Shown here in pieces: positions 2,114-64,000 of a stretch of DNA of 64,000 nt. Source of the DNA: Flavivirga eckloniae (lineage in GTDB: Bacteria > Bacteroidota > Bacteroidia > Flavobacteriales > Flavobacteriaceae). Numbering within the stretch: the stretch's first letter is position 1; every line of letters begins with the position of its first letter. The position numbers and the translations under genes are program-made. Under the pieces are notes generated by a model that worked only from the letters and a program-made list of their open reading frames with translations, was not told where the DNA came from and did no database searches. The stretch is taken from positions 2,309,001 to 2,373,000 of the forward strand of contig NZ_CP025791.1 in the NCBI RefSeq assembly GCF_002886045.1. Reading direction: 5' to 3'.

Positions 2114-2164
2114 ATTATATAATTGAATTACTTCTTATTATTTATTGTTTCACTTTCACAAGCA

Positions 2165-2188
2165 CTTCGACTGCGCTCAGTGTGACAT
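2165..2188. repeat. Short dispersed repeat (CTTCGACTnCGCTCAG family)
   Basis: Between actA and actB lies acttcgactgcgctcagtg followed by tgaca. The same core recurs in the tandem units at 23341-23670 (cttcgactccgctcagca) and, inverted, near 63704-63726. It is a small intergenic repeat of unknown function; similar units are common in flavobacterial genomes. Confidence 0.6.
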
Positions 2189-23153: not shown

Positions 23154-23230
23154 TTACTCCATCAAAACTAATACATTGAAACTAAGAACAGCTAAGGTTC
23201 ATCCTTACAATTAATAAGGATTTCTCTTAT

Positions 23231-23670
23231 TTTTTCACAAGGTCTTGCATAAACTTTTCATTTTCTCGCCCAAAATAATTCTACTCCATAAAAAAATCCC
23301 AATCAAATTAATGATCAGGATCTACAATTCTGTTGGCCTACTAGGGCTTACTTCGACTCCGCTCAGCATAAACTTCTCGCCCCAGAGTAATTTCATTTCA
23401 AAAAAAATCCCAACCAAATTAATGATCGGGATTACAATTCTGTTGGCCTACTAGGGCTTACTTCGACTCCGCTCAGCATAAACTTCTCGCCCCAGAGTAA
23501 TTTCATTTCAAAAAAAATCCCAACCAAATTAATGATCGGGATTACAATTCTGTTGGCCTACTAGGGCTTACTTCGACTCCGCTCAGCATAAACTTCTCGC
23601 CCCAGAGTAATTTCATTTCAAAAAAAATCCCAACCAAATTAATGATCGGGATTACAATTCTGTTGGCCTA
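23231..23670 (-). repeat. Tandem 110-bp repeats copying the tRNA-Gln 3' end and terminator
   Basis: Three base-identical 110-bp units lie at 23341-23450, 23451-23560 and 23561-23670, with a diverged fourth unit at about 23231-23340. Each contains, in minus orientation, the last 16 nt of the tRNA-Gln gene including the discriminator base (AGCCCTAGTAGGCCAA), the terminator hairpin AATCCC...GGGATT with its T-run, and a copy of the CTTCGACTnCGCTCAG repeat. The innermost unit ends inside the functional tRNA gene. A partial open frame across the array has no protein-like character. Confidence 0.92.
23619..23653 (-). terminator. Terminator of tRNA-Gln (repeated in each tandem unit)
   Basis: On the minus strand AATCCC (23653-23648) and GGGATT (23631-23626) frame a 16-nt loop, followed by a run of T (8 T in all). 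The same structure recurs 110 and 220 bp further downstream, so the tRNA transcript meets several consecutive terminators. Confidence 0.65.
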
Positions 23671-23735
23671 CTAGGGCTCGAACCTAGACTCTTCTGGACC
23701 AAAACCAGACGTGTTGCCAGTTACACCATAGGCCA
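23663..23735 (-). tRNA. tRNA-Gln (anticodon UUG)
   Basis: The minus strand folds as a complete tRNA: acceptor TGGCCTA paired with TAGGCCA, a D-arm GTGTAACTGGCAACAC, an anticodon arm TCTGG-TTTTGGT-CCAGA with anticodon TTG, a T-arm CTAGG-TTCGAGC-CCTAG and discriminator A. CCA is not encoded. A consensus promoter lies 18 bp upstream. The last 16 nt, discriminator included, are repeated three more times downstream. Confidence 0.95.
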
Positions 23736-23752
23736 ATGTGCAATTGAGGGTG

Positions 23753-23782
23753 CAAATTTAGTACAAAGTTTTATTTGTACAA
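23753..23782 (-). promoter_or_regulatory. Promoter of tRNA-Gln
   Basis: On the minus strand TTG (23782-23780), a 19-bp spacer and TAAATTTG (23760-23753) give an exact match to the Bacteroidota housekeeping promoter. The predicted start lies a few bases before the tRNA 5' end at 23735. Confidence 0.8.
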
Positions 23783-23886
23783 GTATTTTTTAAAAATAAT
23801 TTTCATTACTTAACGTTTCCTTAAAAAGCTAAGGAATAACATATTTATTATTAAATTCGCCATAGCAAATAAATTTATTGATATAC

Positions 23887-63620: not shown

Positions 63621-64000
63621 GGGGCTTTTAATTAATATGGTTATAAAAACAGGGTTTATTTTGAGGTAAAATTCAAGGTATAACAATATTTCTGATGAAG
63701 CTTGTACTGAGCAAAGTCGAAGTACCTAATCGACATTTTGTTCCTAATTTAATGGTAAAAGGACCAGTATAAATGGGATTAAACTAAAGACCAAATCCTA
63801 TTTCTAAAATGTGGTCTTTACCTTTTATTCCCTGCTGTAACGTTTCGGATTACAATCCCTTAATTCAAAGTAATTTTTCTTGTTTTTTTATCTTACCGCC
63901 ACTAAACGCAGTTTAGCGGGAGCGGGGTATTTAAATCTTCAATTAATAAAATAATAACACTCTCATTTTTCAACTCCAAAACCATTATTTCTATTACTCA
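63621..64000. other. Right-edge non-coding region with dispersed repeats
   Basis: No gene is visible. It holds ttgtactgagcaaagtcgaa at about 63704-63723 (inverted relative of the repeat at 2165-2188) and ccgccactaaacgcagttta followed by gcggga at about 63898-63923, a palindromic unit of another dispersed type. Confidence 0.5.

Follow-up and report, generated by a model that had tools for sequence, protein, structure and literature searches.

Why does tRNA-Gln of Flavivirga eckloniae carry, directly behind it, repeated copies of its own 3' end? The gene lies in a 64,000-nucleotide stretch of contig NZ_CP025791.1 (positions 2,309,001 to 2,373,000), referred to here as the window. A sequence-only reading had described the locus as three base-identical 110-bp units and one diverged unit, each with the last 16 nt of the tRNA gene, a terminator hairpin and a dispersed repeat, and our analyses bear this description out (Table 1). 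Units 1 to 3 agree at 110 of 110 bases, and Tandem Repeats Finder reports the 110-bp array at 23290-23678 with 98% matches and 0% indels. The part of the tRNA that is repeated runs from A58 in the T-loop to the discriminator A73; since the first unit begins within the tRNA gene, the extra tails number three. Four hairpins followed by a T run occur in 23200-23800, against a shuffle mean of 0.4 (sd 0.6), and these serial terminators are probably a by-product of the array. The dispersed repeat, TGAGCGNAGNCGAAG, is found 50 times in the 5.67-Mb genome (0 times for the reversed control), with 5 of the 50 copies sitting in the Gln and Thr arrays. In units 1 to 3 each terminator is followed by GGGGC-GAGAAG-TTTA-TGCTGAGCGGAGTCGAAGTA and then by the next A58, the left arm being GGGC/GCCC plus flanking pairs. 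Unit 4 ends in a remnant of the left half of the hairpin, GGGCGAGAA..AGTTTATGC (about 23247-23271); its core is lost and no tail lies beyond. Two more hairpin cores in the window have no tRNA part (2163-2182, minus strand, 21.5 bits with the R1 model of Table 1; 63697-63725, plus strand, 18.9 bits).

Table 1. The tRNA-Gln array in the window. R1 is a covariance model built from 50 chosen element sequences.
Feature	Position	Strand	Remarks
tRNA-Gln (anticodon TTG)	23662-23735	-	ARAGORN; Rfam tRNA, 62.9 bits
tRNA-Gln A58	23678	-	last 16 nt checked directly
tRNA-Gln discriminator A73	23663	-	last 16 nt checked directly
Unit 1	23569-23678	-	110 bp: the tRNA's own last 16 nt, trailer, terminator, left arm, GAGAAG, hairpin core
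Unit 2	23459-23568	-	110 bp; second tRNA tail at its start
Unit 3	23349-23458	-	110 bp; third tRNA tail at its start
Unit 4 (diverged)	23247-23348	-	fourth tRNA tail, diverged terminator, hairpin left-half remnant
Element of unit 1 + tail 2	23553-23610	-	GGGGC left arm, GAGAAG, TTTA, core hairpin, A58, tail; R1, 69.3 bits
Element of unit 2 + tail 3	23443-23500	-	R1, 69.3 bits
Element of unit 3 + tail 4	23333-23390	-	R1, 69.3 bits
Terminator-like hairpin, unit 1	23626-23653	-	followed by T run
Terminator-like hairpin, unit 2	23516-23543	-	
Terminator-like hairpin, unit 3	23406-23433	-	
Terminator-like hairpin, unit 4	23294-23323	-	

Assemblies tend to fail at identical repeats, and two relatives, G010 and G024, have contigs that stop within or close to arrays of this kind; on visual inspection, the break in G024 seems to be a further mobile element lying in the array. 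The genome studied here, however, is a single contig of 5,665,358 bases, so that an assembly break at the Gln array is unlikely, the contig breaks in relatives suggest collapse rather than invention of repeats, and arrays of such units occur in many assemblies. That the array is an assembly artefact is therefore extremely improbable.

The arrangement recurs elsewhere in the same genome, at two tRNA-Thr genes, tRNA-Trp and dnaK, and at tRNA genes of related species, which answers the earlier proposal that like units be sought next to other tRNA genes. One tRNA-Thr(TGT) gene has two extra tails 116 bp apart, while the other tRNA-Thr(TGT) and tRNA-Trp have one each (with one mismatch at Trp); all three carry the hairpin type seen at Gln. 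The same-genome check covered 30 loci out of 38 tRNA matches, among which both tRNA-Lys genes score as repeated tails since the whole gene is duplicated.

A contig scan of GTDB genomes, using a pattern that fixes GAGAAG and the core and leaves the left arm free, gave at least 144 matches in at least 120 stretches, some of them from genomes of the same-genus relatives set. Among the matches listed, 121 of 144 have a called same-strand tRNA no more than 1 kb upstream, 114 of 144 (113 within 1 kb) have a second tail of the nearest upstream tRNA with at most 3 mismatches in 15 (exact in 98), and 22 of 144 have no called tRNA upstream in the stretch. At least 17 isoacceptors carry the element among the matches listed, 15 of them with an exact second tail. 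The taxa, taken for 80 of the 120 listed stretches, are mostly Flavobacteriia, with a few other Bacteroidota, one Chlorobiota-labelled metagenome-assembled genome (MAG) and several CPR-labelled genomes, and MAG labels may be wrong. With R1 at E 0.001, matches occur in 21 of the 40 genomes that make up the relatives set (the window's genome counted), many of them to the core only; at E 1e-7 with stricter filters, matches were found in 8 of 247 Bacteroidota genomes (own included) and in 7 of 145 genomes of one CPR phylum, two of which were already known carriers. Among the 34 loci that were new in these Bacteroidota and CPR searches, 22 have a called tRNA at most 400 bp upstream, an association weaker than in the pattern scan; of the other 12, two lie at a recombinase gene, and some show by eye a tRNA tail for which no tRNA was called or which is close to the end of a contig. 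The distribution is patchy. The class of hairpin elements recurs directly behind tRNA genes and rarely behind protein genes, namely dnaK and, in two CPR genomes, the recombinase gene.

Several loci in these sets have individual features. Tamlana nanhaiensis has six elements behind tRNA-Gly(TCC) at 116-bp spacing (L168, 7201-7815), the most per stretch among the matches listed. Genome G244 has an element behind tRNA-Ile(gat) at three places (L363, L370, L374), possibly in repeated operons, and in G018 (L335) two tRNA-Lys genes have repeats with 90-bp spacing and a longer hairpin tip. On contig C10 of G010 (L326, about 700-830), a tRNA-Met tail without a tRNA body precedes a trailer and element, and probably marks the distal boundary of an island that integrated at tRNA-Met.

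Where does the duplicated part begin and end? We compared tail copies in 186 of 226 elements (the 226 defined by GAGAAG with at most 1 mismatch plus a minimum arm score; the 186 having one unit between tails and at most 3 mismatches in 16). Identity between copies is 0.97 at nt 58, 0.61 at nt 57 and 0.10-0.12 at nt 53-56; in the other direction the values are 0.95-0.99 as far as nt 74 and 0.77 at nt 75, then about 0.5 until about nt 115. As the tail copies were found with nt 58-73, the evidence lies in the outer positions only, and single positions higher up agree by composition (0.71 at nt 46, 0.63 at nt 49, 0.84 at nt 52). In tRNAs, then, the duplication opens in the T-loop, between nt 57 and 58, covers the rest of the gene and in many cases extends into the trailer. 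The T-loop, in which the sequence-only reading placed a microhomology for slippage, is the break point, but simple slippage would give another junction than the one seen, because the hairpin remains intact right down to the final base pair that precedes A58; a template switch of a more complex kind is possible.

The element as a whole consists of a left arm complementary to tRNA nt 59-65, GAGAAG, YYTR, a variable hairpin (usually CTGAGCGNAGNCGAAG) and the second tail from A58. In an alignment of 121 distinct sequences, the invariant parts are largely those fixed by the search pattern. The left arm, though absent from that pattern, covaries with the tail: position -1 pairs with nt 59 in 94% of the sequences (78% when shuffled) and -2 with nt 60 in 98% (79%), and pairing reaches 60% (37%) at -5, 63% (50%) at -6 and 49% (41%) at -7. 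Positions -3 and -4 are too invariant to be informative, and past -7 these sequences give no pairing signal except at one marginal position. For the 50 chosen sequences, 88.3% of cells are paired in the drawn structure, compared with 76.8% (sd 1.0) after shuffling and 33-49% in slid versions, and arm-tail covariation is 0.401 against 0.189 shuffled; 0 of 500 shuffles reach the pairing or covariation value, counts that are not probabilities since the sequences are kin. The tip of the hairpin is replaceable: Met, Asn and Lys loci bear different tips on the same base. We also looked for a left arm spanning the whole tail in short-gap forms and set the idea aside: the mean score was 6.1 at gaps of at most 30 and 4.9 at gaps of 51-80, and the arm is near full length in few cases (L163, L177). 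Behind tRNA-Met, a second hairpin lies within the second tail, at the border of T-stem and acceptor (L121, L209, L170).

Matching between arm and tail could reflect a selected RNA, in which hairpin plus tail would act as a T-arm mimic or as a small RNA processed out of the tRNA transcript, in the manner of E. coli rtT. The covarying 7-bp stem corresponds to the T-stem plus two loop bases, one element lies between tRNA-Thr and tRNA-Tyr in what is seemingly one operon, and at a like place E. coli has an annotated small RNA, RttR. Yet where second tails have drifted (47 of the 226 elements), the better match of the left arm is the second tail in 8, the tail of the gene itself in 16 and neither in 23, where the two fit equally, even though the test leaned towards the second tail (the arm was picked as its best fit) and kept rows that are, by eye, out of register or chance (L057, L111, L178, L204, L209, L221, L343). 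Compensatory change between the left arm and drifted second tails was rejected on these counts, and with only 8 of 47 favouring the second tail, selection on the hairpin is not demonstrated. Folding argues in the same direction, since three of four units show no more stability than shuffled sequences (z 0.09 for the window unit, -0.53 and 0.38 for the two others), whereas the unit from G024 does (z -4.41). Like forms also occur at protein-gene ends, which have no T-arm and speak against a tRNA-mimic role. We regard a selected RNA as improbable.

At protein genes the picture is as follows. A dnaK end followed by the hairpin, in the form gene end (stop TAG)-CYTG or TTTG-core, is present in 7 of 12 same-genus genomes (G000, the genome of the window, and G003, G005, G006, G008, G009 and G011). 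A second dnaK end, with mostly synonymous differences, follows in 6 of the 7, G009 being without a second copy. The dnaK end is plain in the other 5 of 12 (G001, G002, G004, G007, G010) and also in G012, G014-G017 and G030; the comparison took in 19 of 30 loci, and G018 was not aligned. In G002 and G004 the flank behind the plain dnaK continues the second copy of G003, so that the first copy plus hairpin is the added part there. Translation of the second dnaK end was considered and rejected, the two ends lying in different frames wherever both are seen in the frames of one stretch. Two CPR genomes show a like duplication at the 3' end of a gene for a tyrosine recombinase (L393, Pfam PF00589; L397, alike in sequence). 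At each locus both tails encode EEKVKLEQL-stop; the left arm is CTTTTTCC, which matches the second copy in L393 and, in L397, matches the first copy better. In both dnaK and the CPR recombinase gene, inspection by eye places the break in or at a loop of 7 nt that closes a small hairpin, much as the T-loop closes the T-arm.

Marks of integration by tyrosine recombinases are a break at a constant point of the T-loop and a restored gene end with mostly synonymous differences, such as separate the two ends in dnaK and the CPR recombinase gene. The sequence-only reading had raised the idea that the units could be stacked attachment-site remnants at the tRNA 3' end. This fits poorly with the size of the units: within a search reach of 900 bp, the second tail lies at most 130 bp from the tRNA end in 178 of 226 elements, leaving no room for a gene between tails. 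The one longer unit that was examined, of 770 bp in G009, holds instead the N-terminal part of an ISAon1-type transposase (L032, 1002-1355, minus strand) and no integrase, and a conserved hairpin with GAGAAG is unexpected for random remnants. Integrase remnants, like a tRNA-mimic role, are thus less supported as an account of the hairpin repeats, and we think them very unlikely.

How the Gln array itself grew can be approached through relatives. Counting the genome of the window, the Gln tail is repeated or has a decayed second copy in 8 of 12 same-genus genomes and is single in G001, G002, G004 and G007; these four average 3.0 R1 matches and the others 13.1, in a comparison that ignores kinship. 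We compared 22 short trailer stretches, leaving out the last trailer of G010. In G003, G006, G008 and G009 the last trailer is closer to single-tail relatives (0.76-0.82) than to the first unit of the same genome (0.58-0.71); their first units find their likeness in those of other genomes (0.66-0.77). The window (0.78) and G011 (0.86) have first and last trailers that are similar to each other, and the last trailer of G005 resembles none (0.43-0.47). Together with the hairpin remnant in unit 4, the likeness in the window and in G011 means that tandem duplication of a pre-existing tail-trailer-hairpin fits there. The three units of the window thus fit plain amplification of a unit with a native-type terminator, and in other genomes a differing unit type stands upstream of the native end. 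The single-tail relatives may be secondary losses, and trailer comparison does not separate insertion at the Gln locus from an old duplication with loss in these genomes.

Could tandem duplication account for the whole class? A REP would then lie behind the terminator, replication would stall at the hairpin and slip to the T-loop through shared TCGA, and quasi-palindrome correction would later match the arms. TCGA is present in both the T-loop (TTCGA) and the REP core (GTCGAAG), the like trailers of G000 and G011 agree with such a history, a left-half remnant of the REP persists in the last unit of the window and of G003, and identity extends some bases into the hairpin in several other last units. 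Arm correction through template switching is described in excerpts of PMC3820800 and PMC8604942. The junction, however, with its whole hairpin to the last pair and then A58, is not the product of a slip at TCGA, and the break in dnaK and the recombinase gene is not at TCGA. A single register across many tRNAs and phyla would require repeated events, and the first trailers of G003, G006, G008 and G009 are not close copies of the last. We consider this account possible, though rather doubtful.

We favour, with moderate confidence, a reading in which a REP-like hairpin inserts or is born at the 3' ends of genes, doubling the gene end as it does so, and the Gln array is one such hairpin amplified locally. 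This reading brings together the fixed start in tRNAs, the form of the element, the matching of its arm and its occurrence at unrelated gene ends. The hairpin would enter or arise by a DNA event, either insertion or a template switch at a hairpin, and this event would duplicate whatever lies between the site of entry and some point within the gene end. As the gene would retain a complete end, the event would be tolerated. Two like tails and trailers would then allow ordinary recombination or slippage to expand or shrink the array, giving three identical units with serial terminators, and the left arm would gain its complementarity either at birth, as a copy of the tail, or afterwards, when imperfect inverted repeats are corrected against each other. 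It is unlikely, in our estimation, that the process is a structure-reading recombination, in which some enzyme joins folded single-stranded hairpin cassettes to the hairpin loops of gene ends, such as T-loop 57|58 of any tRNA and the putative 7-nt loops in dnaK and the CPR recombinase gene, restoring the gene and rebuilding the outer arm from the target. Such a system, if real, would span Bacteroidota, CPR and the E. coli rtT repeats, with tRNA-Gln as a receiving site that holds three stacked cassettes.

Among known systems, integrative elements that target tRNA genes share the break in the T-loop and the restoration of the gene end by an incoming copy, but no recombinase or cargo was seen in the units (tail search up to 900 bp). 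Integron attC sites form a folded hairpin with an outer stem, an unpaired spacer, an inner stem and a variable tip. The element resembles this plan in outline, except that its outer stem follows the tRNA. No Rfam family matched the element at gathering score in the 17 loci scanned or in the window, and an Rfam identity for the unit was rejected, the sole matches lying far below threshold (e.g., NsiR1 on the terminator, and anti-hemB). Among the open-licence papers listed, none describes a tail-duplicating class of hairpins.

REP/BIME sequences and their RAYT transposases are closer, in that the element is a short, dispersed palindrome with a conserved apical part and 50 exact cores in a genome that has PF01797 matches. 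To our knowledge, REPs neither duplicate the end of the preceding gene nor have an outer arm matched to a gene end, whereas Gln-type elements do copy it. Among the 12 same-genus genomes, counts of PF01797 (Y1_Tnp) do not follow element counts (Pearson 0.01, Spearman -0.18), no moving enzyme was found, and RAYT as the mover was rejected on this ground; G016 and G019 have elements and no PF01797 match. Core hairpins lie within about 1 kb of 1 of 4 PF01797 loci in the window's genome, on one side only. Behind a PF01797-type gene (G000:C1:543619-544161, minus strand) there is a core hairpin at about 150 bp, with outer arms of another form. Excerpts of PMC3733652 give a GTAG or CGTC tag beside the palindrome as the REP/RAYT mark, those of PMC12306157 count rttR among REP-holding small RNAs, and neither set of excerpts mentions gene-end duplication.

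The tyrT-tyrV repeats of E. coli (RtT, RF00391, rttR) have the same layout, each unit beginning with a tRNA tail from A58. They were described decades ago and have stood as a curiosity. Three of the four K-12 units read GGGGAAGGAT-GAGAAG-(about 90 nt)-A-ATCCTTCCCC and the fourth begins GGGGAAGGGT-GAGAAC; their 10-nt left arm is complementary to the tail in the same register as in the Gln array elements, and in all four, folding predicts a 10-bp pairing between arm and tail. Like the elements described here, the repeats are sited between and behind tRNA genes and vary in number of places, but they have an inner domain of about 90 nt with dissimilar sequence and, in the region examined, involve only tRNA-Tyr. 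R1 gave no confident match to E. coli rtT (best 9.6 bits, E 0.38), so that the layout is common and common descent is not demonstrated; likewise, no hit of the RtT covariance model to the window units appeared at E values as high as 10, and the Gln array shares only the layout and is not assigned to RtT. Matches to rtT were present in 4692 of 5426 E. coli genomes, at 1 to 10 places anywhere in the genome (median 3). Variation in copy number, suggested earlier for the Gln array, would accordingly be expected by analogy with rtT only, for which excerpts of PMC2658671 also report a tandem-repeat difference of 175 bp between Salmonella serovars. If the E. coli tyrT repeats and the elements described here form one class, tRNA gene ends in distant phyla would be entry points for a short, end-copying hairpin, and the outer arm, matched to each tRNA in turn, would allow the birth of such palindromes to be tested directly.
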